Of a stretch of 64,000 bases of DNA, positions 32,857 to 47,305 are shown piece after piece. Origin of the DNA: Pelosinus propionicus DSM 13327. GTDB taxonomy: Bacteria; Bacillota; Negativicutes; DSM-13327. The stretch spans positions 1-64,000 of the forward strand of contig NZ_FOTS01000022.1 of assembly GCF_900114615.1 (NCBI RefSeq), read 5' to 3'. The position numbers were made by a program, and so were the translations under genes. Every line of letters begins with the position of its first letter. The stretch's first letter is position 1. The notes below the pieces were generated by a model. The model did not search any database and was not told where the DNA came from. It was given only the letters and a program-made list of their open reading frames with translations.

Positions 32857-32891
32857 AAAAGCTCATATCCTAATACAGGACATGAGCTTTT
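32857..32891 (-). terminator. terminator overlapping the glycerate kinase stop
   Basis: AAAAGCTCATATCCT (32857-32871) and AGGACATGAGCTTTT (32877-32891) pair with one mismatch. The minus-strand copy continues CTTTATTT, and the kinase stop codon sits inside the hairpin. The gap 32600-32856 shows nothing else. Confidence 0.85.
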
Positions 32892-34054
32892 CTAATCTCT
32901 TTATTTTTTCTATCCCCCAGCTTCATGCTCCTTTTTATGACATGGCATAATCGTTCGGCTGCCGCTTCTATCAATTCGGGAGCATTTGTCATGCAATCAG
33001 CTAAATTCATTGGCGAAGGAATAATGCTCATCAAGCCTGTAATACCACAAGAATATACTTCTTCATATCCTTTGCCTAAACTGCCTGATAGGCAAAAAGT
33101 AGGAACATCATGCGTTCTAGCAATACGCGCTACACCAACTGGAGCTTTTCCACAAGCAGTTTGAAAATCAGTACACCCTTCACCAGTAATGATAAAATCA
33201 GCTTCTCTGGCAATATTAGAAAAGCGTACTGCCTCAAGTATAATCTCAACACCAGGCAATAGCTTGGCATTGGTAAAAAGCAGTAAGCCTGCTCCAAGAC
33301 CGCCAGCAGCTCCTGCCCCTGGATATTGGGCAACATCTTTCCCTGTAACCTGCTTAGCAATCGCAGCAAATTTTGCTAATGCAGCATCTAATTCAGCAAT
33401 CATTTCTATCGTAGCACCTTTTTGCGGGCCATAAATAGCCGATGCACCCTGCGGTCCGCATAAAGGGTTATCAACATCACAGGCTACGACTATCGTCGTT
33501 TCGGCTAAACGTGCATCCATTTGACTAACATCAATCTTTGTCAACTGCTGTAATGCTGCCCCTCCACTAGGCAAGGAATTACCAACAGCATCTAGAAATT
33601 TTGCTCCTAAAGCACAAGCCATGCCCATTCCGCCATCATTTGTTGCACTGCCGCCTATTCCAATGATTAATTTGCGGATTCCCCGATCAAGAGCTGCCTT
33701 TATCAATTCACCTGTTCCATAAGTAGTCGTGATGCAAGGATTGCGTTTGTCCTGAGGTACCAAAGGCAGACCGGATGCAGCTGCCATCTCAATGACAGCG
33801 GTTTCTCCATCGCCAAGTATTCCCCAATGAGCCTCTAATGGATTTCCTAATGGCCCAAGTACAGTTTCGGTAATGATTTGCCCACCTGTAGCTACGACAA
33901 GAGCTTCTATTGTACCTTTTCCTCCGTCCGCTATTGGTACTTTTATTACCTCAGCATCTGAGAAAACCGATAATATTCCTGCTTCCATAGCATTTGCTAC
34001 AGCTACAGCTGATGCACTCCCTTTAAATGAATCAGGGGCCACAACAATGCGCAT
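32870..34054 (-). CDS. glycerate kinase (GlxK/GarK family)
   Basis: The protein is 394 residues. It phosphorylates D-glycerate, in this family at the 2-hydroxyl, so the product enters glycolysis. The family start RIVVAPDSFKGSASA, IGIGGSATNDGGMGMA (about 130-145) and PGAGAAGGLGAGL (about 245-257) are present. The usual TGEGRxDxQT block is TGEGCTDFQTACGKAP here, keeping the acidic residues. It ends the carbohydrate-acid cluster, after a glycerate dehydrogenase gene separated by a hairpin. The final 15-20 residues are unusually basic. Confidence 0.9.
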   Translation of the reverse strand: MRIVVAPDSFKGSASAVAVANAMEAGILSVFSDAEVIKVPIADGGKGTIEALVVATGGQIITETVLGPLGNPLEAHWGILGDGETAVIEMAAASGLPLVPQDKRNPCITTTYGTGELIKAALDRGIRKLIIGIGGSATNDGGMGMACALGAKFLDAVGNSLPSGGAALQQLTKIDVSQMDARLAETTIVVACDVDNPLCGPQGASAIYGPQKGATIEMIAELDAALAKFAAIAKQVTGKDVAQYPGAGAAGGLGAGLLLFTNAKLLPGVEIILEAVRFSNIAREADFIITGEGCTDFQTACGKAPVGVARIARTHDVPTFCLSGSLGKGYEEVYSCGITGLMSIIPSPMNLADCMTNAPELIEAAAERLCHVIKRSMKLGDRKNKEIRKAHVLY

Positions 34055-34140: not shown

Positions 34141-34207
34141 CTCATCATTTTATTTTATCATCTAACTAATTATTAATCTATCTTTTACTATAATCTACTC
34201 TGAAATA

Positions 34208-35228
34208 AACTTCTACTTGTTCACAATGTTGACTGGTGTATTTGCCAAAAATTTTGTCAGATTATCTACAGCAATATCCATTAGTCTAGATCTGGATTCT
34301 TTTGGTGCCCAAGCAATATGAGGCGTAATAATGCAGTTTTTTGCTGTAAGCAATGGGTTATCCGCTTTAATGGGTTCTGAGGAAACAACATCTAATGCCA
34401 CTCCATATACTTTTCCACTATTTAACGCTTCTGCTAAATCTTCTTCTACAATCAAAGGTCCCCGAGAGGTATTGATAATGATAACTCCATCTTTCATTTT
34501 AGCAATATTATTTTTGTTCACAATGCCTTTGGTGCTGTCAAACAACGGGCAATGCAGGGAAATTACATCAGAGTTTGCTAACAGCTCATCAAGACTGGCA
34601 TACTGCAGAGTATCACTTTTAAGCTCTTCAATTTCATAGGAGTCAAAGGCTAATACTTTCATTCCCAAAGCCTGAGCGATCTTTGCCGTTGCCTGACCAA
34701 TTCTGCCAAACCCAATAATACCTAAGGTTTTACCTGCAAGTTCGATAAGAGGATAGTTCCAATAGCACCAGTCTGGACAATTGGTCCAGTCGCCTTTTAG
34801 CACACTCCGGCTATGTTCTCCAATGTGATGGCATACTTCCAGTAAGAGAGCAATGGTAATTTGTGAGACCGCAGTAGTGCCATAGGTTGGAATGTTGGCT
34901 ACCGGGATCCCTTTTGCTTTTGCAGCTTCCACATCTACCACATTGTAGCCCGTTGCTAATACGCCGATAAATTTAATGTTCGGGCAAGAAGCAAAGACTT
35001 CTTGATCGATAACGGTTTTGTTGGTGAAAACGATCTCGGCGTCTCCAATTCTTTCTATCGTTTTTTCTGCTGATGTCCGGTCATAGACCACAACATCTCC
35101 TAATGCTTTCAGACCATCCCAGCTTAAGTCTCCAGGATTTAATGTGTAGCCATCTAATACAACAATTTTCATAATCGTTTCTTCCTCCAGTTTTTTTATA
35201 GTTTAGCCCAGGCTAAATTTAAAGCACG
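34208..35228 (-). repeat. 1.0-kb near-identical repeat, copy A
   Basis: This segment recurs at 43511-44530 in the same orientation with only scattered base changes. It holds the whole dehydrogenase gene plus about 30 bases of the end of the gene before it. In this copy those 30 bases are the real 3' end of the TIM-barrel gene, so copy A looks ancestral. Confidence 0.92.
34213..35172 (-). CDS. D-2-hydroxyacid dehydrogenase (glycerate/hydroxypyruvate reductase), copy 1
   Basis: The protein is 319 residues. It reduces a 2-oxo acid such as hydroxypyruvate to D-glycerate with NAD(P)H. The nucleotide fold has LGIIGFGRIGQATA (about 148-161). Catalytic Arg is in INTSRGPLI, Glu in VVSSEPI, and His in ITPHIAWA near residue 281. 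GGAGG precedes the ATG. It closes an operon of aldolase, isomerases and MFS carrier and precedes glycerate kinase, which supports a hydroxypyruvate-to-glycerate role. Protein copy 2 differs at only four residues. Confidence 0.92.
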   Translation of the reverse strand: MKIVVLDGYTLNPGDLSWDGLKALGDVVVYDRTSAEKTIERIGDAEIVFTNKTVIDQEVFASCPNIKFIGVLATGYNVVDVEAAKAKGIPVANIPTYGTTAVSQITIALLLEVCHHIGEHSRSVLKGDWTNCPDWCYWNYPLIELAGKTLGIIGFGRIGQATAKIAQALGMKVLAFDSYEIEELKSDTLQYASLDELLANSDVISLHCPLFDSTKGIVNKNNIAKMKDGVIIINTSRGPLIVEEDLAEALNSGKVYGVALDVVSSEPIKADNPLLTAKNCIITPHIAWAPKESRSRLMDIAVDNLTKFLANTPVNIVNK

Positions 35229-36107
35229 CTTTGCGTTCGCGACTACCAAATCAGGGTCTTCATCTCCCCAAGGTTTTACTTCAAAGCTTACTATCGGACG
35301 GTTGGCTTCACTAATAAAGCCAATATCCATAAGCACTCGCAAGAAGTGAACGATTTCGTTTACACCTATGACACCATTTGGAAAGCCAAAGCGCGGATGT
35401 AAATCTCCATACCCTTCCATGGTTGGATCCTCTACTACACAATTGGCAATGTGAGCATGAACAATATACTCCTTGATCGGCAGTATCGCTTCTTCAACGG
35501 TTTCATGCAATTGGGCAATATGACTTAAGTCTACCATGAGACCAAAATTATCATATTCAGCTCTTATCTCTTGGGCAAAACGTTTCGCAAGTGACGCAGG
35601 ACCGATTAGTGATTTTTTATCAAAGTCATAGTCAAAGACTTCGAGAATAATTTTTAGATCACCTTTCGATTTGGCATACGCACATAATTCTTTTGTTGAT
35701 TTTACCAATGCAGCGAAGGCTTCTTCTTTTTTAGATTCTTCATATTTTCCCGAAAGAAATGCGCAACCTACAGCACCTAACTCATAGGCTTCGTCTACTC
35801 CTTCTTTTAGAGATGCAAGGGCTTCGAGGCGTACTTTTTCATCCAGAGAGTTGATGTTTAATCCTGTAGTCAGATGCCTTGGCTGGCAGCCGTAACCTAC
35901 TGTTAATCCTGCTGTTTTTACGGCATCTGCCACTTGTTTTCTAGTGTCTTTGTCTTTGATCCAGGTTAATTCAATCGCATCAAAATAATCATCGTTAGCA
36001 ATTTTTTTAGCGGATTCCAGTATTGAACCTTCTCCTTTTATCGTCGTAGGATAGGCCATAAAATTTACGATTCCAACTTTCATGTATTTCTTCATAGATT
36101 CAATCAT
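35196..36107 (-). CDS. TIM-barrel sugar isomerase/epimerase
   Basis: The protein is 303 residues of the AP-endonuclease-2 / xylose-isomerase-like fold. Metal ligands can be placed at ILEVFDYD, LMVDLSHIAQLHET, HAHIANC and the late SFEVKPWG strand. These enzymes use Mn2+ or Mg2+ to isomerise or epimerise keto sugars and keto acids. The specific substrate is unknown; hydroxypyruvate isomerase-like activity would fit the adjacent dehydrogenase. GGAGG lies eight bases before ATG 36107. Its last 30 bases also survive beyond dehydrogenase copy 2. Confidence 0.8.
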   Translation of the reverse strand: MIESMKKYMKVGIVNFMAYPTTIKGEGSILESAKKIANDDYFDAIELTWIKDKDTRKQVADAVKTAGLTVGYGCQPRHLTTGLNINSLDEKVRLEALASLKEGVDEAYELGAVGCAFLSGKYEESKKEEAFAALVKSTKELCAYAKSKGDLKIILEVFDYDFDKKSLIGPASLAKRFAQEIRAEYDNFGLMVDLSHIAQLHETVEEAILPIKEYIVHAHIANCVVEDPTMEGYGDLHPRFGFPNGVIGVNEIVHFLRVLMDIGFISEANRPIVSFEVKPWGDEDPDLVVANAKRALNLAWAKL

Positions 36108-36126: not shown

Positions 36127-37020
36127 TTATTTAACTAATCCCATATTTTCTAGAATTTTTTTCAATTTAACCATATTAACCTCTGAGCAGCTGGTATTCG
36201 GTTTAATTGGATCGCCAGCTTGAAAGCCGATAAGGTTCATTGCATCCTTGGTTACCACTGGCCAGCTGCCAAGCCCCATAGCTACTCGCAATGGAGCAAG
36301 CTTATATTGAGCTTCTAGTGATCCTTGTATATCACCAGCCATAAATGTATCGTAGATTTTGACCACTAACTTTGGAGCAATGTTGGCAGTAGCCGCAACG
36401 CATCCTACGCCGCCATAAACTAACGTACCTAATATCATTGTATCTCTGCCAGCCATCACTTTAAAACCGTTACCTCGTGTCCTGCGGATATATTCGGAAG
36501 TCAGGGTTAAGTCGCCACTACTGTCTTTGGCCCCAACAATATTAGGAATATTCGCTAATCGCTCAACAAGATTCGCTGAGATATTCACCTTTAAACGATC
36601 AGGATTATTATAAATGAGTATTGGAAGCGATGTTGCTTCAGCAATCGTCACAAAATGCTGGTACAATTCCTCTTCGTTTGGACTAATAAACATAGGGGGT
36701 AAAACCGTAATTGCTTGCGTCCCTGCTTCTTCAGCCATTTTAGCAAGCTTAACCGATTCTTTTGTAGTAATCGCTCCAATTCCTGCATAAACTGGAACTC
36801 GTCCTCTTACCTGATCAATTGCAATTTCAATAGCACGCTTTTGTTCATTATAGTCAAGACCATAAAATTCACCATTACTGCCTAATACAAATACACCATG
36901 CACGCCTCCACCTATGACATGTTCAATAATTTGACGAAAAACCACTTCATCTACTTGGTCATCTTTATTTACGGGCGTTACTACTGGCGGTATTACGCCT
37001 TTTATGAAACTAATATCCAT
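36127..37020 (-). CDS. DapA-family (class I) aldolase/dehydratase
   Basis: The product is about 297 residues, a dihydrodipicolinate-synthase/N-acetylneuraminate-lyase type barrel. The pyruvate-binding loop is LGSNGEFYGLD (about 46-56), Tyr is in LILIYNNPDR, and the Schiff-base lysine in GAKDSSGDL (about 160-168). Relatives cleave or dehydrate 2-keto-3-deoxy sugar acids. The cluster of sugar-acid genes argues for such a role and against lysine synthesis. AGGAG favours the ATG at 37020 over the ATG at 37029. Confidence 0.85.
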   Translation of the reverse strand: MDISFIKGVIPPVVTPVNKDDQVDEVVFRQIIEHVIGGGVHGVFVLGSNGEFYGLDYNEQKRAIEIAIDQVRGRVPVYAGIGAITTKESVKLAKMAEEAGTQAITVLPPMFISPNEEELYQHFVTIAEATSLPILIYNNPDRLKVNISANLVERLANIPNIVGAKDSSGDLTLTSEYIRRTRGNGFKVMAGRDTMILGTLVYGGVGCVAATANIAPKLVVKIYDTFMAGDIQGSLEAQYKLAPLRVAMGLGSWPVVTKDAMNLIGFQAGDPIKPNTSCSEVNMVKLKKILENMGLVK

Positions 37021-37037
37021 ATTCTGCATCTCCTTTC

Positions 37038-38408
37038 TTATTGAGCACTGGATGACTCAATGATTGGCTCATCTATCGTTGCAAGAGCAATTAGGCACAA
37101 TATGCCGCTTCCAGCCATATATAGAAAAACACTATTCCAACTATACGCATCTAATAACATTCCAACAAATAATGGAGCACAAGCACCACCTATTTGCCCC
37201 ACGGTATTCACTATACCAAAAGCAACAGGATAGGTAGCTTTACTAGCCAGCCCCATAGGATAAACAGAATATCCAGCAAAACCGATGCCGACCATCAAAC
37301 CAGCCAACAATAATGTTAAACCCAAGTACAAAGCGTTATTAGGTGCATAAATTAAAGCAACCATCATCACGATTGTCCCAAAGGCACCGAGCATCATCAT
37401 AGGCTTACGTCGTTTCCCCAGCACTCGATCTGAAATAAATCCTCCCAGCAAATTCCCTAGGACGGAGCCTAGAAATGGCGCTGACGCTAAGAATCCCATT
37501 TTGACCGATGTGAATCCTTTTACCGTCATAAGATAAGTAGGTATCCACGACATAAAAATGTTACTTACACCAATAATACAACCATAGCCAACAGCAGCTC
37601 CAATCACATTCCAAGAGAGAAATACCTGACGAAGAGTTTCTAACTGCACAACCTTTTTGGTTCGATTTAACTTATCTAACCATCCTAAATCATATTGCCT
37701 GCGGCCTTCTGATTTATTTTTTTCTTTAATAATTGAACCTTCTTCACTTCGAATGTAGTGACATTCAGCTCCAGAACAGAATTTATTATCCTCTGGGGAA
37801 TTAGTCACCATAATCATCCACAAAATTGAAAATAGTATTCCTGGGGCAGCAAAAATGTAAAAAATTTCTCGCCAGCCCCACAATTCAATAATTACAACGC
37901 ACAGCGGCGGTACAATTAATGGTCCCAGCTTTGATGCTGCAATCCAAAGCCCAGTAGCCGTCCCTTTTTCTTTAGCAGGAAACCACCGATTAATGATATT
38001 GGTGCACCCAATTCCCAGCGGCCCCTCTGAAAGGCCTAAACCAACGCGAAAAGTTTTCAATAAAAACACGGAAGAAGTTGTCCCCATCAAACCCGTAAAT
38101 ACAGAGGTCAAAATCATGAATATTGGAAATAATCTACCTGTCACCTTGTTACTCAATCTTTTATAAACAAGCCCTATGGGAATTTGTACTACACCGTAAG
38201 CAAAGGAAAACAAACTAATAATAGCGCCAGCTTCTGTATTCGTAATTCCATATTCTTTCTTCATATATGGCAACGCGATACCCAAATTAGCGCGATCAGC
38301 ACAGGCAATAGCCCATATGACAAAAATAAGTGCCATTACTACCCACCGATAATTGGTCTTCTTTTCTTGGGAAGCATAAGCCGGTTCTTTTAGTTCTGCA
38401 GATTGTGA
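37038..38408 (-). CDS. MFS anion:cation symporter (hexuronate/galactonate type), paralogue 1
   Basis: The protein is about 456 residues with 12 helices. FVIWAIACADRANLGIALPYM (helix 1, Asp/Arg pair), RVGLGLSEGPLGIGCTNIINRWFP and the late GFAGYSVYPMGLASKATYP belong to the ACS family, whose members carry glucarate, galactonate or hexuronates with H+. GGAGG selects the ATG at 38408. By eye it is about 85% identical to the protein at 41393. It is the middle gene of the aldolase operon, so it probably imports the substrate. Confidence 0.88.
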   Translation of the reverse strand, partial: SQSAELKEPAYASQEKKTNYRWVVMALIFVIWAIACADRANLGIALPYMKKEYGITNTEAGAIISLFSFAYGVVQIPIGLVYKRLSNKVTGRLFPIFMILTSVFTGLMGTTSSVFLLKTFRVGLGLSEGPLGIGCTNIINRWFPAKEKGTATGLWIAASKLGPLIVPPLCVVIIELWGWREIFYIFAAPGILFSILWMIMVTNSPEDNKFCSGAECHYIRSEEGSIIKEKNKSEGRRQYDLGWLDKLNRTKKVVQLETLRQVFLSWNVIGAAVGYGCIIGVSNIFMSWIPTYLMTVKGFTSVKMGFLASAPFLGSVLGNLLGGFISDRVLGKRRKPMMMLGAFGTIVMMVALIYAPNNALYLGLTLLLAGLMVGIGFAGYSVYPMGLASKATYPVAFGIVNTVGQIGGACAPLFVGMLLDAYSWNSVFLYMAGSGILCLIALATIDEPIIESSSAQ

Positions 38409-38511
38409 CATCTTGCTCCTCCTAACCATTAATAACATCAGCCACATTTTATTAAGTCCTAACATCTTAAATCACTGTAAACTATTAAAAACAAAAATTA
38501 CAAACTGACTT

Positions 38512-39387
38512 TTAATACTTTTCTATTAGATAAGCAATGCTCTTTTTATGATTCTCATAGATAGTCTCTAATTCTTCCGCAGGAGATAATTCAATTGCTA
38601 CGTATACTTTATTTTTTTTGGATAGAACGTCTAAATATAACTCTAAAGGCAGCGTATTTTCTCCAAGTATCGAATGGGATTTTCCGTCTTTAGCACTTTT
38701 CAAATGTGTGTAATCTACTCTTTCAATATGCTGCTCAAAAAACGTTTTCACTGCATCTGAGTCACTCACATCCCTTGATACAGAAAAGAAATTTGCAGTA
38801 TCCAATTGCCAAGCAACATTTTCATTTACACCATTTTTCCCGAATAAATCCCCCGTACCAAAGGTTTGTATCCCATCTCCCTGCAAACCTTCTCGGGCAT
38901 TTTCTACAGAAAGGCTTATACCAAACATTCTTGCCATATTTGCCGCTTTATTTATATTCTTTTTGAGCTTTGAAAAGTCTTCAGCCGTCCAATATTGTTT
39001 TTTCTCATCATTTGTCATCTCGGGACCATTTGCTCCCGTTCTAATCATCTTGGGTCCTTCAAAGGCAAGGGTGTTTGCAACAGCGCGAGCGAAAGTCTCA
39101 AAATATTTTGGATCCATTCCTCCAACATTAACAGCGTAAATTACTTCGATGCATTTTTGACGGGCCCAATCCGCTAATTCTTTACATTCATCTAATGCCA
39201 GTGCAGCATTTGGATCTCTTAATTCGATAAAAGTAAACCCTTGTTCACTAGCATAGTCAATTATTTCTTTCACATTTGATCTAGTTGGCGGGAGAGCCTT
39301 TGCAAAATTTGCAGTTGTAAATCCGATCTTCAGATTAGGATATTTATTTAAAATAATGGTTTTATTTGCAATGTGTTTACTTATCAT
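38512..39387 (-). CDS. TIM-barrel sugar isomerase/epimerase
   Basis: The protein is 291 residues. It has the xylose-isomerase-like barrel with ISLSVENAREG, NVAWQLDTANFF, VDYTHLKSAKDG and VYVAIELSPAEE as the metal-binding strands. It is only distantly related to the other barrel at 35196 and not an obvious IolE or Hyi. The substrate is unknown. GAGG lies seven bases before ATG 39387, and the aldolase gene is 10 bases upstream, so the two are co-transcribed. Confidence 0.75.
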   Translation of the reverse strand: MISKHIANKTIILNKYPNLKIGFTTANFAKALPPTRSNVKEIIDYASEQGFTFIELRDPNAALALDECKELADWARQKCIEVIYAVNVGGMDPKYFETFARAVANTLAFEGPKMIRTGANGPEMTNDEKKQYWTAEDFSKLKKNINKAANMARMFGISLSVENAREGLQGDGIQTFGTGDLFGKNGVNENVAWQLDTANFFSVSRDVSDSDAVKTFFEQHIERVDYTHLKSAKDGKSHSILGENTLPLELYLDVLSKKNKVYVAIELSPAEELETIYENHKKSIAYLIEKY

Positions 39388-39397
39388 TATTCATCCT

Positions 39398-40168
39398 CTA
39401 TTTTTTCAGCACTTCTAGGCCACTTTTTGCCCCAGCCATCATAAGAACCACATCATTTGCCCATAAATTTATTGTCATCCCTTTTGCGATCCAAGGCTGC
39501 AGGGCATCAGAGGACGTTAAGTGAGTTCCAGAGTATTTACCTCTTTCTTTTGCAGATAAAATTACCCGATCTATGGCAGCAATGAAATCTGGATTGTCAA
39601 ACTGACCAAGTATTCCCATGCTTTGAGATAAATCATTCGGTCCCATAAATGCTGCATCAATTCCATCGATATCCAAGATCCTCCCGACATTTTCTACTCC
39701 CTTTAGGGATTCAATTTGTACCATAAGTACTGTTTCTTCATTCACACTCTTCATGTATTCAACTGCATTCCCTATCTTTTCAAATCCGGTATGTGCCCTT
39801 AACAGTGATACCCCTCGATTCCCCAAGGGAGCGTATTTCGCATGTTGTACCAATAATTGAGCCTGTTCAACCGTTTCTGTATTCGGCAGTAAAAGGCCGG
39901 CTGCCCCCATTTCCATATATTTTAGTACTACTTCGCGTTTAATCTCTGGGATTCGGACGATTCCAGGAATCCCAGCTTCTCTAGCAATTGCTAATATATT
40001 CGCTACTGCACTATAATCATAAGGTCCATGCTCACAGTCAATAATAAAATAATCAAACCCGCATACCTTTAAAATCTTCGCAATTTCTGGACTGTCAAAA
40101 ACTGTAATCATAGTCCCGATAACACTTTCGCCACTTTTCAAACGTGCTTTTAAGTTATTCTTCATCAT
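39398..40168 (-). CDS. HpaI/GarL-type class II aldolase
   Basis: The product is 256 residues. It cleaves a 2-keto-3-deoxy acid to pyruvate (or makes the reverse aldol) with a divalent metal. Catalytic H45 is in DCEHGPYDYS, Arg in IVRIPE (about 70), metal Glu in VQIESLKGV (about 147), and Asp in GPNDLSQS (about 174). The other product would be an aldehyde such as tartronate semialdehyde or hydroxypyruvate. It is first in the operon, with a TGATAT-type palindrome 117 bp upstream and GGAG before the ATG. Confidence 0.92.
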   Translation of the reverse strand: MMKNNLKARLKSGESVIGTMITVFDSPEIAKILKVCGFDYFIIDCEHGPYDYSAVANILAIAREAGIPGIVRIPEIKREVVLKYMEMGAAGLLLPNTETVEQAQLLVQHAKYAPLGNRGVSLLRAHTGFEKIGNAVEYMKSVNEETVLMVQIESLKGVENVGRILDIDGIDAAFMGPNDLSQSMGILGQFDNPDFIAAIDRVILSAKERGKYSGTHLTSSDALQPWIAKGMTINLWANDVVLMMAGAKSGLEVLKK

Positions 40169-40284
40169 AATTGCTCCTTTAACTTTGTATTTCTAAACTA
40201 GAAAATATTTATCTTTTTAGATACTTCTTTAATAATGACATCTTTTTTAAACACCTTATCGGAGTTTTTTAATTAGACACCCTA

Positions 40285-40307
40285 TACTGATATCTGATAT
40301 ATCAGTA
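40285..40307. promoter_or_regulatory. candidate GntR/FCD operator upstream of the aldolase operon
   Basis: TACTGATAT, a 5-base centre CTGAT and ATATCAGTA make a 9-bp-arm palindrome. The core TGATATCTGATATATCA recurs exactly at 42964-42988 and with two changes at 41224. The rest of the 365-base gap 40169-40533 holds only the hairpin at 40414. Confidence 0.7.
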
Positions 40308-40413
40308 TGCTCATTTTTTATTTTATCACAATATTTTCACATGTCAATATTATTCGCAATATTTGCAGTATCAGATGATTTAAATAGAAGTTATAGTATT
40401 GCTCTTAAACAAT

Positions 40414-40461
40414 TATAAACCTTGCAATGTAAGCATAATTGGCTTAACATGCAAGGTTTAT
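40414..40461 (-). terminator. terminator of the GntR regulator gene
   Basis: ATAAACCTTGCA pairs with TGCAAGGTTTAT, with further imperfect inner pairing (TGTAAGC / GGCTTAACA). The minus-strand copy is followed by ATTGTTTAA. It lies 73 bases past the regulator stop. Confidence 0.7.
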
Positions 40462-40533
40462 GAGGATACTACTATGAAACTTTTTCCTACGAAAATGCAA
40501 TGTTGCATCCTGTAAGATCCAAACATTCAATAG

Positions 40534-41196
40534 CTATTTTTTTATATTTAATATAAAAGTGGTACTACGATGAATATGTGATCGTACCGCATTTTCCGCA
40601 CCATCAGGATCTCTCATGGAAATCATTTTAAAAATGAGCTGATGCTCTCTAAGTGCTCTATCTAATTCTTCCGGATTTGATAATATCTTATTTCTAGGAC
40701 CTAAATCAAAGGAACGAATTGCTTCTATCTGCTTATATACATAGTTATTTTTTGCAAGAATCGCAATCATTTTATGAAAATAAGCATTCATTTCCAAAGT
40801 TTTTTCCGGATTTCGCTCTTTGGTATAACGTTCCATTTCCTTTAAAACGTCTTCTAACTGGCTTATCTCATCATCACTTATTTTGGTGGCCGCCAATCGA
40901 GCGGCAATTCCCTCAACTGCTGAACGTATTAAATTAATTTCTTCAATAGAAACCATAACATCGTTTGACACAAAAGAACCGACTCTAGGTCGAGTTATTA
41001 TAAGCCCCTCTTGTTCTAAGCGTCTCATAGCTTCTTTTAAGGGAGTCGTACTGATCATAAATTGTTCTGCAAGCTGCCTTTCATTTAAATGAAATCCTGG
41101 CTTGTAGTCCCCTACTATAATCGCCTCTTTTAGTTTTTCATATACAACATCCCTGACAGACCGAGTCTTAGAAGTAATATCCATCGCAAATTCCAT
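40534..41196 (-). CDS. GntR-family regulator with FCD domain
   Basis: The product is about 220 residues. The winged helix (about 10-75) reads LNERQLAEQFMISTTPLKEAMRRL; the C-terminal FCD helical domain has NAYFHKMIAILAKNN and an HIHRST end with metal-type histidines. The start at ATG 41196 is chosen from AGGAAGG and because a copy of the operator sits at 41224-41240, inside any longer reading frame. It is flanked by two operator-bearing promoters and likely controls both and itself. The ligand may be a sugar acid or pathway intermediate. Confidence 0.85.
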   Translation of the reverse strand: MEFAMDITSKTRSVRDVVYEKLKEAIIVGDYKPGFHLNERQLAEQFMISTTPLKEAMRRLEQEGLIITRPRVGSFVSNDVMVSIEEINLIRSAVEGIAARLAATKISDDEISQLEDVLKEMERYTKERNPEKTLEMNAYFHKMIAILAKNNYVYKQIEAIRSFDLGPRNKILSNPEELDRALREHQLIFKMISMRDPDGAENAVRSHIHRSTTFILNIKK

Positions 41197-41223
41197 ATCT
41201 GAGTCATCCTTCCTACAAGCTAT

Positions 41224-41240
41224 TGATATTTTATATATCA
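41224..41240 (-). promoter_or_regulatory. candidate auto-regulatory operator
   Basis: TGATATTTTATATATCA differs from the shared core at two central positions only. It lies 28 bp upstream of the regulator start, where bound protein would block its own transcription. Confidence 0.5.
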
Positions 41241-41332
41241 TTCTATCATAAATTTCCAACAGATCCAATAAGAGCTATATATACTATATCTAATATAAAT
41301 TTTTAGTCATATATCTTTAGGTTTTCAATTGA

Positions 41333-41376
41333 AAATGAGGTGATACACTATGAATCTCATAGATATCACCTCATTT
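41333..41376 (-). terminator. terminator of the second MFS gene
   Basis: AAATGAGGTGATA (41333-41345) and TATCACCTCATTT (41364-41376) form a perfect 13-bp stem, 17 bases past the MFS stop. Minus-strand T run: CATTTTCAA. Confidence 0.8.
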
Positions 41377-41392
41377 GTTATTACTATGATTT

Positions 41393-42766
41393 TTATGCAG
41401 CCTTCTCTGGCTCTACCCTAGGCTCATCTATGGTGGCAAGAGCAGTTAAACATAAAATTCCACTACCCGCCATATAAAGAAAAACACTATTCCAGCTATA
41501 AGCATCTAACAGCATCCCAACAAATAAAGGAGCACATGCACCGCCAATCTGTCCTACGCTATTTACAATACCAAACGCAACTGGATAGGTTGCCTTACTT
41601 GCCAGCCCCATAGGATAAACGGAATACCCTGCAAAGCCGATGCCGACCATCAAACCAGCCATAAGTAAGGTAACACCTAAATAGAAAGCATTATTTGGTG
41701 CATAAATTAAAGCAATCATCATCATAATTGTCCCAAAGGCACCAAGCATCATCATTGGTTTTCGTCGCTTATCAAGTAGACGATCTGAAATAAAACCGCC
41801 TAATAAATTTCCTAATACAGATCCCATAAAAGGAGCTGATGCTAAAAAACCCATTTTAATAGATGCAAAACCCTTTGATGTCATCAAGTATGTGGGAATC
41901 CATGACATGAATATATTGCTGATCCCAATCATACAACCATAGCCAATAGCAACGCCCAAAACATTCCAGGAAAAGAAGACTTGGCGAATTGTTTCTAGCT
42001 CTACAACTTTTTTGGTCCGATTTAATGTATCCAGCCATCCTAAATTATAAGTTCTACTAGGCGTCTTAAGCTTTTCTTGCTTAAACATGGAACTTTCTTC
42101 ACTACGAATATAATTGCATTCAGCACCAGAGCAGAATTTATTATCTTCTGGTGAGTTTGTCACTAAGATCATCCAGAGAACGGAAAATAAGATTCCCGGA
42201 ATTGCAAATACGAAAAAGATTTCCCTCCAACCCCACAATTCAATGATAACTACACATAATGGAGGCACAACTAGCGGCCCTAGCTTGGATGCTGCGATCC
42301 AAAGCCCTGTAGCAGTCCCTTTTTCTTTTGCTGGAAACCATCGATTAATAATATTGGTACAACCGATCCCCAAAGGCTCTTCCGAAACCCCTAACCCTAC
42401 ACGGAAAAGCTTCAGCAGAAACACAGAAGAAGTAGTTCCCATCAAACCAGTAAACAGGGAAGTGAATATCATGAACATGGGAAAAAGTCTTCCCGTGATC
42501 TTATTACTTAACCTTTTATAAATAAGTCCCATGGGAATTTGCACGATACCATACGCAAAGGAAAATAAACTAATAATAGCTCCGGCTTCCGTATTAGAAA
42601 TATTATATTCTTTCTTCATAAATGGCAAAGCGATCCCTAAGTTCGCACGATCAGCACAGGCAATAGCCCATATAATAAAAATTAATGCCATTACCACCCA
42701 GCGATAATTTGTTCTTTTTTCTAAGGATGTTGTAACCTTTTCAGTCGCTTCTAAGGATTGTGACAT
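41393..42766 (-). CDS. MFS anion:cation symporter, paralogue 2
   Basis: The protein is about 457 residues. It is the close paralogue of the carrier at 37038, with the same helix-1 IACADRANLGIALP segment and the same C-terminal YSVYPMGLASKATYP block. Differences concentrate in the central loop (about 225-245) and at the ends. GGAGG selects the ATG at 42766. It forms its own transcription unit, with operator at 42964 and terminator at 41333. Two nearly alike carriers under one regulator may differ in affinity or substrate. Confidence 0.88.
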   Translation of the reverse strand: MSQSLEATEKVTTSLEKRTNYRWVVMALIFIIWAIACADRANLGIALPFMKKEYNISNTEAGAIISLFSFAYGIVQIPMGLIYKRLSNKITGRLFPMFMIFTSLFTGLMGTTSSVFLLKLFRVGLGVSEEPLGIGCTNIINRWFPAKEKGTATGLWIAASKLGPLVVPPLCVVIIELWGWREIFFVFAIPGILFSVLWMILVTNSPEDNKFCSGAECNYIRSEESSMFKQEKLKTPSRTYNLGWLDTLNRTKKVVELETIRQVFFSWNVLGVAIGYGCMIGISNIFMSWIPTYLMTSKGFASIKMGFLASAPFMGSVLGNLLGGFISDRLLDKRRKPMMMLGAFGTIMMMIALIYAPNNAFYLGVTLLMAGLMVGIGFAGYSVYPMGLASKATYPVAFGIVNSVGQIGGACAPLFVGMLLDAYSWNSVFLYMAGSGILCLTALATIDEPRVEPEKAA

Positions 42767-42963
42767 ACTTGATCCTCCTTTTTTCATACTTACCTTGATT
42801 AGATCATTATGCTGCTCCACTATGTAATGCAATATGATCATATGTAACCTATGAAACTCACCTCCTAATTACACAATTACGCACAGTGCCCTTTTAGATA
42901 ACAACCCCCTCGATTCGCAACAAAAAAGCTGAAATAAGTGCGTTTTTTGAAGTAGAGACTCTA

Positions 42964-42988
42964 TATTTGATATCTGATATATCAAATA
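42964..42988. promoter_or_regulatory. candidate GntR/FCD operator upstream of the second MFS gene
   Basis: TATTTGATAT, centre CTGAT, ATATCAAATA: a palindrome with 10-bp arms about 200 bp upstream of the MFS start. It contains the same 17-base core as the aldolase operator. Elsewhere in the 749-base gap 42767-43515 I see only the hairpin at 43246. Confidence 0.7.
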
Positions 42989-43245
42989 TCAATAGCTTGT
43001 TTTTAATTTTATCATAATATTTAAACATGTCAATATTATTCTGAATATTTTGTTCTCGGTTATATTATCTAGCTAAACAAGAAAAGGGAACACTGTTTCA
43101 TCATCATAAATTATTCCTGCTAATCTATCGTTATAGTATTTAACTATCTCGATTGTATTCTGAACTCTTTTTCAATCTACCATACTAAATTAAGGTCTCG
43201 ACAACAATCAATACAAGCATGTTATTTACCGATTTTTATCATATA

Positions 43246-43291: not shown

Positions 43292-43510
43292 TGTATATAT
43301 TTTCTTTCGGATTTACACAACATCGTGTATTTTTTGCGTATTAAGCAATATCTTAAAATTGTTCAGACTCTTGCTGAACTGATAACAAGTTTTATCTCAA
43401 TCGATTTTCAATTTCGAAGATTGGTCTTCTAACCGCTTGAAGAGAGTTTTATTTATTTGATCTAAAAATCTGCTGAATAGGCAGCATTAAGACCGAGAAA
43501 AACTAATAAT

Positions 43511-44530
43511 AACTTCTACTTGTTCACAATATTGGCCGGTGTATTTGCCAAGAATTTTGCTAGATTATCTACAGCAATATCCATTAGTCTAGATCTGGAT
43601 TCTTTTGGTGCCCAAGCAATATGAGGCGTAATAATGCAGTTTTTTGCTGTAAGCAATGGGTTATCCGCTTTAATGGGTTCTGAGGAAACAACATCTAATG
43701 CCGCTCCATATACTTTTCCACTATTTAATGCTTCTGCTAAATCTTCTTCCACAATCAAAGGTCCCCGAGAAGTATTGATAATGATAACTCCATCTTTCAT
43801 TTTGGCAATATTATTTTTGTTCACAATGCCTTTGGTACTGTCAAACAGCGGGCAATGCAGAGAAATTACGTCGGAGTTTGCTAACAGCTCATCAAGACTG
43901 GCATACTGCAGGGTATCGCTTTTAAGCTCTTCAATTTCATAGGAGTCAAAGGCTAATACTTTCATTCCCAAAGCCTGAGCGATCTTTGCCGTTGCCTGAC
44001 CAATTCTGCCAAACCCAATAATACCTAAGGTTTTACCTGCAAGTTCGATAAGAGGATAGTTCCAATAGCACCAGTCTGGACAATTGGTCCAGTCCCCTTT
44101 TAGTACACTCCGGCTATGTTCTCCAATATGATGGCATACTTCCAGCAGAAGCGCAATCGTAATTTGTGATACCGCAGTAGTGCCATAGGTTGGAATGTTG
44201 GCTACCGGAATTCCTTTTGCTTTTGCAGTTTCCACATCTACCACGTTGTAACCTGTTGCTAATACGCCGATAAATTTGATGTTCGGGCAAGAAGCAAAGA
44301 CTTCTTGATCGATAACGGTTTTGTTGGTGAAAACGATCTCGGCGTCTCCAATTCTTTCTATCGTTTTTTCTGCTGATGTCCGGTCATAGACCACAACATC
44401 TCCTAATGCTTTCAGACCATCCCAGCTTAAGTCTCCAGGATTTAATGTGTAGCCATCTAATACAACAATTTTCATAATCGTTTCTTCCTCCAGTTTTTTA
44501 TAGTTTAGCCCAGGCTAGATTTAAAGCACG
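43511..44530 (-). repeat. 1.0-kb near-identical repeat, copy B
   Basis: This is the second copy of the segment at 34208-35228. After the ribosome site it keeps TAGTTTAGCCCAGGCTAGAT, the remnant of the last codons of the TIM-barrel gene, then loses similarity at 44530. The copy was therefore made from the locus at 34-35 kb and inserted here behind the transketolase genes. Confidence 0.92.
43516..44475 (-). CDS. D-2-hydroxyacid dehydrogenase, copy 2
   Basis: The product is 319 residues and differs from copy 1 at four positions, none at the nucleotide-binding GFGRIG, catalytic SRGP, SEP or PHIAW sites. Both copies should therefore have the same activity, taken to be hydroxypyruvate or glyoxylate reduction. 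It lies 97 bases behind the split transketolase genes, in the same direction, and so is placed in a different operon from copy 1. The changes are mostly Ala/Val/Thr swaps, consistent with recent duplication under selection or with gene conversion. Confidence 0.92.
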   Translation of the reverse strand: MKIVVLDGYTLNPGDLSWDGLKALGDVVVYDRTSAEKTIERIGDAEIVFTNKTVIDQEVFASCPNIKFIGVLATGYNVVDVETAKAKGIPVANIPTYGTTAVSQITIALLLEVCHHIGEHSRSVLKGDWTNCPDWCYWNYPLIELAGKTLGIIGFGRIGQATAKIAQALGMKVLAFDSYEIEELKSDTLQYASLDELLANSDVISLHCPLFDSTKGIVNKNNIAKMKDGVIIINTSRGPLIVEEDLAEALNSGKVYGAALDVVSSEPIKADNPLLTAKNCIITPHIAWAPKESRSRLMDIAVDNLAKFLANTPANIVNK

Positions 44531-44571: not shown

Positions 44572-45519
44572 TTATTTCGATTTTCTTGCCAATACTTTTT
44601 GCGCTGCCAAAACAATATCATTAGCTACAAGATGGTACTTAACAGCCAGTTCTTCTGGCGTACCACTCTCCCCAAAGGTATCTTGAATACCTATCATTTC
44701 AACAGGTACTGGTTTATTTTTTACCAATACTTCAGAAACAGCGCTGCCAAGCCCTCCGGCAACCTGATGTTCTTCAGCAGTAACAATTGCCTTGGTTTCC
44801 TCTGCAGCTTGCAATACAACAGCTTCATCCAAAGGCTTTATCGTATGCATGTTAATAACTCTAGCCGAGATTCCCATTGCTGCTAATTGTTCATTAGCCA
44901 ATAGAGCCTCATAAACAATAGGACCACAAGCAATAATTGTTACGTCCATCCCCTCCTTTAGCACATTAGCTTTACCAATTTCAAAAAAATCCCTTTCTTC
45001 AGTAAATACAGGCGTTGCTTCTCTAGCAAACCGCAAGTAGCAAGGTCCTTTTACACTAGCTGCTGCAATGGTAGCCTTCTTAGCTTCAACTGCATCACAA
45101 GGAACCATTACTTGCATGTGAGGCAATACTCTCATTAAAGCAATATCTTCTAACGCTTGATGGGTAGCGCCATCAGGACCAACAGAAATCCCGCCGTGAG
45201 CTCCGGCAATTTTAACATTCAGCTCTGAATAACAAATCGTAGTTCTAATTTGATCCCATGCTCTGCCTGTAACAAAAACACCGTAAGTAGTTGCAAAAGG
45301 GATTTTTCCTCCTAAAGACAGCCCTGCCGCTGTACCAAGCATATCCTGCTCCGCAATACCAAGATCAAAAAACCGCTCTGGAAACTTATCGGCAAACCAA
45401 TCAGATCGTGTTGATTTTGCAAGATCCGCATCTAATACTACAACTTCTGAATTCGTTGCCCCAAGTTCAATTAGCCCATGACCATAACCATCTCGATTTG
45501 GTAACATTTTTATGCTCAT
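44572..45519 (-). CDS. transketolase, C-terminal subunit
   Basis: The product is 315 residues, with the pyrimidine-binding and C-terminal domains of a split transketolase. DADLAKSTRSDWF, FFDLGIAEQDMLGTAAGLSL (catalytic Glu near 55), the FATTYGVF loop, and HGGISVGPDGATHQALED are present. It works with the N-terminal subunit, encoded 2 bases upstream, to transfer two-carbon ketol units using thiamine diphosphate. Split pairs in catabolic clusters are often devoted to unusual ketoses (for example apulose-type pathways) rather than the pentose-phosphate route. Confidence 0.92.
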   Translation of the reverse strand: MSIKMLPNRDGYGHGLIELGATNSEVVVLDADLAKSTRSDWFADKFPERFFDLGIAEQDMLGTAAGLSLGGKIPFATTYGVFVTGRAWDQIRTTICYSELNVKIAGAHGGISVGPDGATHQALEDIALMRVLPHMQVMVPCDAVEAKKATIAAASVKGPCYLRFAREATPVFTEERDFFEIGKANVLKEGMDVTIIACGPIVYEALLANEQLAAMGISARVINMHTIKPLDEAVVLQAAEETKAIVTAEEHQVAGGLGSAVSEVLVKNKPVPVEMIGIQDTFGESGTPEELAVKYHLVANDIVLAAQKVLARKSK

Positions 45520-45521
45520 TA

Positions 45522-46352
45522 TTAGTTCCCCTTCCCATAGATATCATCTAATGCGATTTGCAGCTCTTTTTCATTGCAACTTTTGCCATGCCAGCCTGCA
45601 ACATTCTCCATGAAAGAGCAGCCTTTTCCTTTAACAGTAGTTGCAATGATCACGCTTGGTTTTCCTTTTGTTTGCTTTGCCTCTTCATAAGCAGCAAGAA
45701 CTTGTGAAAGATCATGTCCATCAATTTGGATGGTATGCCAATTGAAAGATTGCCATTTTTCTACTAAGGGAGCAACACCCATAACAGCTTCTACAGTACC
45801 ATCAATTTGTAAATTATTATAGTCAACTAGAGCACAAACTTGATCCAATTTATAGTGTGCGGCAGTCATTACAGCTTCCCATACCTGCCCCTCCTGCAAT
45901 TCTCCATCTCCTAAAAGACAATAAATCCGAAAGCCCTTTTTATTTAATCTAGCCGATAGGGCTAAGCCATTGGCAATCGATAACCCTTGCCCTAAAGAAC
46001 CACTGGAAACTTCTACTCCTGGAAGCAATTTGCTGCTAGGATGTCCTTGCAATTTCGAACCCAATGTACGTAAAGTCAGTAATTCCTCAACAGAAAAGTA
46101 ACCGCTTCTGGCCATCACAGAATAAAGTACTGGACAAACATGACCTTTCGACAAGATAAAACGATCCCGCTCAGGCCATGCTACTTCTTGTGGCCTATGA
46201 TTCATTACGTTAAAATATAAAGCTGTCATTAACTCCACAGCAGAAAGGCTGCCTCCCGGATGACCGGATCCAGCAGCAGCAGTCATTCTTACAATATCTC
46301 CCCGAACATCTTTACAGCTTTTCTTGAGTTCTTCCAAACTTTGTGTATACAA
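45522..46352 (-). CDS. transketolase, N-terminal (thiamine diphosphate-binding) subunit
   Basis: The product is 276 residues. ThDP contacts include SGHPGGSLSAVELMTALYF (about 30-48), the SKGHV segment, and the metal-binding GDGELQEGQVWEAVMTAAHY followed by NNLQIDG. The start is a TTG at 46352 behind GAGAGGGG. It is the first gene of a unit with the C-terminal subunit and dehydrogenase copy 2. A GGT-N6-ACC element 165 bp upstream matches one before the neighbouring GntR gene. Confidence 0.92.
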   Translation of the reverse strand: MYTQSLEELKKSCKDVRGDIVRMTAAAGSGHPGGSLSAVELMTALYFNVMNHRPQEVAWPERDRFILSKGHVCPVLYSVMARSGYFSVEELLTLRTLGSKLQGHPSSKLLPGVEVSSGSLGQGLSIANGLALSARLNKKGFRIYCLLGDGELQEGQVWEAVMTAAHYKLDQVCALVDYNNLQIDGTVEAVMGVAPLVEKWQSFNWHTIQIDGHDLSQVLAAYEEAKQTKGKPSVIIATTVKGKGCSFMENVAGWHGKSCNEKELQIALDDIYGKGN

Positions 46353-46603: not shown

Positions 46604-47305
46604 CTATCGTTGCAAAAAAGCACGTTCTATATTTTTGAGATGTTCCAGCATTGCATGAGTAGCCATTTTTGAATCTCTACTTTTTATAGCATTAAAAATG
46701 GTTTCGTGCTCCTTATGATATTTCTCACCGCGCCCTAAAACTTCTAAACTTTTTTCTTTCATAATTGTCCACAAGTGTTTACTCATTTGATCTGTTATTT
46801 CAAGCATTGTTCGATATAATATTTCATTTTTTGCACCTCTTGCAAACGCTAAATGGACTTTTCGATCCAGCTCAAAAGCATGCTGACCTTCGTCTAGATT
46901 ATTTTTTAATGCTTCTAAGGCTGTTTCCATTTCCCCAATTTCTTCTTCAGTAGCCCTCTTAGCAGCAAGACTAACTAACTCTACTTCGATTACTCGTCTT
47001 GCTTCCAATAACTCAAAAGGATTCATCAAACTTTCATCCTCTTTAGAAATTGTCGTCAAATTTGATACTGCATCATGCCTTACAAAAGTGCCTATACCGT
47101 GTCTGACTTCAAGTAGACCAATTGCTTCTAAGACACTGAGTGCCTCTCGCAACGATTGACGTCCAATATTTAAGGCTGAAGATAATGTTCTTTCGGAAGG
47201 AAGGCGCTCACCTGGCTTGAGTTCACCTTGTTCAATAAGTTTGCTAATTTGCCCCACAATTTCAGCATAGGTTTTCGTTTGTTTTACAGATTGAAATTTC
47301 AGCAC
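46604..47305 (-). CDS. FadR-type GntR regulator with FCD domain
   Basis: The product is 233 residues. The HTH reads LPSERTLSSALNIGRQSLREALSVLEAIGLLEVRHGIGTFV (in two parts: recognition helix about 42-55, wing to 77). The FCD part has ELDRKVHLAFARGAKN and two later histidines for metal. It starts at GTG 47305 behind GGAGG. It sits directly upstream of the transketolase unit and has a matching candidate site before its own start. It is clearly distinct from the GntR proteins at 3.6 kb and 40.5 kb. Confidence 0.85.
   Translation of the reverse strand: MLKFQSVKQTKTYAEIVGQISKLIEQGELKPGERLPSERTLSSALNIGRQSLREALSVLEAIGLLEVRHGIGTFVRHDAVSNLTTISKEDESLMNPFELLEARRVIEVELVSLAAKRATEEEIGEMETALEALKNNLDEGQHAFELDRKVHLAFARGAKNEILYRTMLEITDQMSKHLWTIMKEKSLEVLGRGEKYHKEHETIFNAIKSRDSKMATHAMLEHLKNIERAFLQR

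Follow-up and report, generated by a model that had tools for sequence, protein, structure and literature searches.

It is proposed, with a probability of roughly 0.86, that a 220-residue GntR protein of the FCD type, encoded in this stretch of Pelosinus DNA (the window, 64,000 nt analysed as a whole), acts as a local, autoregulated repressor on sugar-acid catabolism, with a carboxylate as inducer and CTGATATATCAG-like operators at three promoters. Until the right acid is present, the regulator very probably keeps its own gene and those beside it off, because the sites lie behind promoters and the same motif accompanies relatives of the regulator in unrelated bacteria. The initial annotation had described one GntR regulon with three sites, before an aldolase operon, a second MFS gene and gntR itself. 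This is supported by the promoter position of the sites, their conservation and the cross-phylum motif, and also by the missing site in paralogous clusters without the regulator. Added to that first reading are the promoter geometry, the conservation in a second species, the lack of extragenic copies elsewhere and the probable duplicate origin of two of the sites; the cross-phylum motif, which places the core at CTGATATATCAG, is new. Predicted operators are present in the regulator's own promoter (41224) and in those of neighbouring targets (40288 and 42968), as is usual for an autoregulated local repressor, and these promoters are conserved.

Features of the proposed regulon (positions in the window)
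Feature	Position	Strand	Remarks
Glycerate kinase, probable end of the operon	32870..34054	-	158-nt gap before the gene
D-2-hydroxyacid dehydrogenase	34213..35172	-	
Second xylose-isomerase-like TIM barrel protein	35196..36107	-	
DapA/KdgD-like lyase	36127..37029	-	
MFS transporter 1, galactonate-transporter group	37038..38465	-	
Xylose-isomerase-like TIM barrel protein	38512..39387	-	
HpcH/HpaI-family aldolase, first gene of the operon	39398..40168	-	profile matches
Predicted operator 1, ATACTGATATCTGATATATCAGTAT, before the aldolase operon	40284..40308		inner TGATATATCA at 40295-40304; kept in UBA6563
Aldolase-operon promoter TTGACA-N16-TAAAAT	40320..40347	-	11/12 consensus matches, top of the region; kept in UBA6563
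GntR/FCD regulator, 220 aa, helix STTPLKEA	40534..41196	-	Pfam GntR + FCD
Predicted operator 3, TGATATTTTATATATCA, in the gntR promoter	41224..41240		weaker, inner palindrome 9/10; letter-for-letter in UBA6563
Likely gntR promoter TTGGAT-N17-TAGAAT	41240..41268	-	by eye, under the scan threshold; kept in UBA6563
MFS transporter 2 (MFS2), paralogue of MFS transporter 1	41393..42766	-	start about 42766, from an AGGAGG-like site
Predicted operator 2, ATATTTGATATCTGATATATCAAATAT plus overlapping extra half-site, before MFS2	42963..42991		extra match at 42975-42991; kept in UBA6563
MFS2 promoter TTGACA-N16-TAAAAT, near-copy of the aldolase promoter	43006..43033	-	promoter scan; kept in UBA6563

A 17-base core, identical in two sites within longer palindromes and present with two changes upstream of the GntR/FCD gene, had been noted previously, and both observations were borne out. 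Exact copies of TGATATCTGATATATCA are at 40288-40304 and 42968-42984, and the copy with two changes is at 41224-41240. The palindromes around the exact copies are perfect, 25 bp long in operator 1 (ATACTGATAT-CTGAT-ATATCAGTAT) and 27 bp, at 42963-42989, in operator 2 (ATATTTGATAT-CTGAT-ATATCAAATAT), and rank among the strongest of the window. Matches to the core with three or fewer mismatches number 8 against 0.52 expected, a count reached in 0 of 100 shuffles. Common to all three sites is TGATAT-N5-ATATCA, for which a Markov model of the window gives an expectation of approximately 0.02 per 64 kb. In the 5.41-Mb genome this is found at five loci (the overlapping matches at 42968 and 42975 being taken as one), these being the three regulon sites and two intragenic loci, in a sigma54-type regulator gene (L001) and a NeuB-like gene (L002). 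A genome scan had been suggested, with a core occurring widely at random as the outcome that would count against an operator. When run, it located the exact 17-mer only twice in 5.41 Mb; given the few genome loci and the low expectation, the core is not widespread. The sites are non-random and, if coding sequence is set aside, are confined to the regulon locus. No further regulon members were identified, because TGATATATCA has four other copies in the genome (L117-L120), all within long open frames.

All of the genes concerned are on the minus strand. Of the promoter-like sites in the region, those of the aldolase operon and MFS2 score best, and the palindromes of operators 1 and 2 start about 11-16 bp past their -10 boxes. 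The likely -10 box of gntR, placed by eye, ends on the base with which operator 3 starts. Sites at or downstream of a -10 box suit a repressor and do not suit a classical activator, and on this knowledge of promoters the three operators would therefore be repressor sites. Some GntR/FCD proteins activate rather than repress, and conservation of the sites would be expected equally if this one activated, or did both depending on its ligand. This is improbable, however, not only due to the position of the sites, but also because the aldolase and MFS2 promoters are near-consensus and would need no activator.

The aldolase and MFS2 modules, each a -35/-10 region with its operator, are near-copies of each other and, likewise, the two MFS genes share 79% DNA identity. 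On these grounds the two modules most probably arose by duplication, and operators 1 and 2 are not to be counted as independent events, since the modules are near-copies. Judged by sequence, two of the three predicted operators are paralogous and that of gntR is the weaker of the three; its 17-bp symmetry is kept and its inner palindrome is broken at one base. The MFS2 leader (42767-42960) is about 200 nt long and has an AGGAGG-like sequence near 42860, well before the presumed MFS2 start, which is conserved in UBA6563 and possibly belongs to a short leader frame.

One other Pelosinus genome was found with the regulator, that of UBA6563 (a Pelosinus fermentans MAG), in which the protein is 96% identical and all three sites are present. 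Promoter elements and operators are retained between the two, while the leaders past the operators align poorly, and the gntR operator is identical despite an 8-bp indel between it and the -10 box. In eight other genomes of the family the regulator was not found, the best matches having 30-35% identity. Matches to TGATAT-N5-ATATCA in these eight genomes have different spacers, except for one exact copy of the 17-mer in G001; as this is inside an ACT-type gene with unrelated neighbours, it was rejected as a real site and is regarded as a chance match. The paralogous aldolase clusters of G005 and G009, which are without this GntR, have no site, and on two of three contigs have sigma54-type regulator genes instead. 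Further aldolase clusters in UBA6563 and G009 (L023 1-5200, L080, L081, L082) include genes for a GarR-like reductase and an RraA-like protein and an extra enolase copy, with sigma54-type regulator genes on two contigs and the operator in none.

The regulator contains an N-terminal GntR winged helix (PF00392, 3.3e-18) and a C-terminal FCD domain (PF07729, 2.8e-24), both above gathering scores. By eye, an Asn-x3-His, a His and a further His lie where the metal ligands of 6z74 align, and may bind a metal. The HMMER alignment to Atu1419 covers residues 18-213 and places a Thr where the family typically has Arg45 in its recognition helix. Residue 45 is Thr in the window regulator and in 18 motif-bearing homologues, and Arg in most others; Arg45 is a typical, not an obligatory, feature of the GntR/FCD family.

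These 18 are plasmid-borne alphaproteobacterial homologues with the helix S-T-[TS]-P-x-K-E-A, from a set made of homologues of the window protein and extended by a Gemmobacter query. At least 9/10 of TGATATATCA is present upstream of gntR in 18/18 of them, compared with 0/51 other homologues (shuffle p per locus 0.003-0.02 for the first 15 of the 18 loci). In the Bacillota homologues (about 31-37% identity), mostly with an SRTPVREA helix, the motif is absent, the best match being 8/10 or lower in 51/51; likewise, none of six alphaproteobacterial homologues with SRTP or SAQP helices reaches 9/10. The Negativicutes/Bacillota homologues of about 36% identity were rejected as orthologues, based on the SRTPVREA helix and the missing motif. 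In the tree, the window protein groups with Thr- and Ala-type alphaproteobacterial proteins and not with those of Negativicutes (support 92/91, under the starred level). About four alphaproteobacterial lineages are represented among the 18 (Rhizobiaceae/Phyllobacteriaceae, Terrarubrum, Gemmobacter and Alloyangia), with most from the first group, so that independent events are few, about five lineages with Pelosinus included. Outside Pelosinus, the full 17-bp layout is found in Gemmobacter only (TGATGT-CTGAT-GTATCA), other alphaproteobacterial sites being mostly the inner palindrome alone. Because all of the same-helix homologues carry the motif and none of the others do, the core shared across phyla is CTGATATATCAG, and the 17-mer is CTGATATATCAG with one more half-site. 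The testable operator of the initial annotation is thus retained, but as this inner palindrome plus an extra half-site, not as a free-standing 17-mer. The lone literature match to CTGATATATCAG was a PCR primer and was discarded; no GntR-protein paper naming the motif was found in the open-access text searched.

These comparisons also bear on whether the palindromes are operators of another regulator, for example the second FCD GntR (46604-47305; 233 aa), 4 kb away, with the 40534 regulator acting elsewhere. This is highly unlikely; G004 has the second GntR (96%) with no motif nearby, whereas the 40534 regulator occurs, among the family genomes compared, just in the two with all three sites, one site is within its own promoter and its same-helix homologues carry the motif in another phylum. 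That the palindromes are leader RNA or DNA hairpins, or leftover copies of duplicated promoters with no regulatory role, is scarcely credible although two of the three are in transcribed leaders and duplicated promoter modules, since the third reaches into the likely -10 box of gntR, the stems, outside the CTGAT core, consist of A and T alone and would be weak, and the motif accompanies the regulator across phyla and persists between species while leaders diverge.

The genes of the aldolase operon, a predicted target of the repressor, are consistent with a route, as yet unproven, from a keto-deoxy sugar acid to pyruvate and tartronate semialdehyde, and then through hydroxypyruvate and glycerate to phosphoglycerate; the aldolase scores under the NCBIfam equivalog cut-offs. 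Beside many of the alphaproteobacterial homologues an ABC transporter is encoded divergently, and DapA-family and mandelate-racemase-family genes follow the regulator gene, therefore sugar-acid catabolism is indicated again. By analogy, the inducer should be a carboxylate of the sugar-acid route, because regulators of the FadR subfamily mostly respond to carboxylic acids (PMC4494728). Two direct repeats (34203-35227 and 43507-44530), about 1025 bp long and 96% identical, each contain a D-2-hydroxyacid dehydrogenase gene, the two genes being near-identical. Most of the regulon (MFS, aldolase, gntR and MFS2) lies between these repeats and would be deleted if they recombined. After the duplicated dehydrogenase there is a split transketolase (44572-46352), its N-terminal and C-terminal halves being separate genes, which adjoins the second FCD GntR gene at 46604.

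In the proposed mechanism, GntR/FCD dimers would bind CTGATATATCAG-like operators at the promoters of the aldolase operon, MFS2 and gntR and, when bound, would block transcription initiation or early elongation. By sequence, a single dimer could occupy either the inner palindrome or the whole 17-mer. The outer GATATCA half-site would probably strengthen the aldolase and MFS2 operators, and the weaker copy at gntR would give negative autoregulation. A carboxylate in the FCD domain, either the sugar acid or a keto-deoxy breakdown product, would release the repressor. In operators 1 and 2 about 10 nt separate the outer GATATCA from the middle of the inner palindrome; additional half-sites are often seen in GntR sites at 7-12 nt (PMC4494728), a range that includes this distance.

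As a local, autoregulated FCD repressor the proposed system is of an ordinary kind, and its operator does not follow the family signature. GT-Nx-AC (TKGT/ACMA boxes) is absent at the expected places in the Pelosinus sites, where the inner palindrome is TGAT-AT-ATCA, and by its sequence the operator is judged non-canonical for the GntR family. Membership of the GntR/FCD family stands, since known members, BioR and NanR, also have deviating operators (PMC4494728). The FCD protein Atu1419 has been solved with DNA; its Arg45, a residue typical of the recognition helix in the family, reads G3 of ATGTATACAT, and binding is abolished when G3 is replaced by A (and C8 by T) (PMC7797058). As TGATATATCA has A3/T8 where ATGTATACAT has G3, and as Thr45 is aligned with Arg45, the operator deviates from the family rule in step with the recognition helix. 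In rhizobial sites one half is often TGGT or ACCA, and Thr45 therefore seems to tolerate G3 in one half-site. Two Roseomonas-type homologues with the helix SAQPVREA (L110 2486 and L112 2404) have an identical 14-mer, TCTGCTATTGCAGA, at or near the gene starts; with two loci only, this is possibly a further operator type of this branch, with C3. It is tentatively suggested, and is on balance doubtful, that this FCD branch changed a key contact, with residue 45 and half-site base 3 co-varying (Arg45 with G, Thr45 with A or sometimes G, and perhaps Ala45 with C). If true, this pairing would amount to a simple code for DNA recognition within the GntR proteins, of which the Pelosinus regulon would be the AT-rich version, having three or four half-sites stacked and perhaps looping between operators 1 to 2.7 kb apart.

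An uncharacterised regulator thereby becomes a defined regulon with a short, testable operator common to different phyla. It also provides a natural example of altered DNA specificity; in its family, one of the largest among bacterial regulators, the protein often gives no clue to the binding motif. Of the systems compared, Atu1419 of Agrobacterium fabrum (a VanR-group FCD GntR repressor; PDB 6z74 and others; PMC7797058) shares the GntR winged helix and FCD domain and likewise has 10-bp palindromic operators at promoters including its own, with a catabolic locus that is repressed, as is predicted here. It differs in its operator, ATGTATACAT with an Arg45-G3 contact as against the core TGATATATCA (A3, with G at 2) and Thr45, and in controlling hydroxycinnamate rather than sugar-acid catabolism. 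DgoR, ExuR, UxuR and GntR, of the FadR subfamily, are likewise local FCD regulators of sugar-acid operons with palindromic operators, however theirs are TKGT-N2-3-ACMA, whereas the window sites have AT/AT for the GT/AC pair (PMC4494728). NanR of Escherichia coli, also an FCD GntR, has an operator of repeated half-sites bound by several dimers, and half-sites are repeated here too; those of NanR are direct repeats, (GGTATA)3, while the window sites are an inverted repeat with an additional half-site (PMC8012715).
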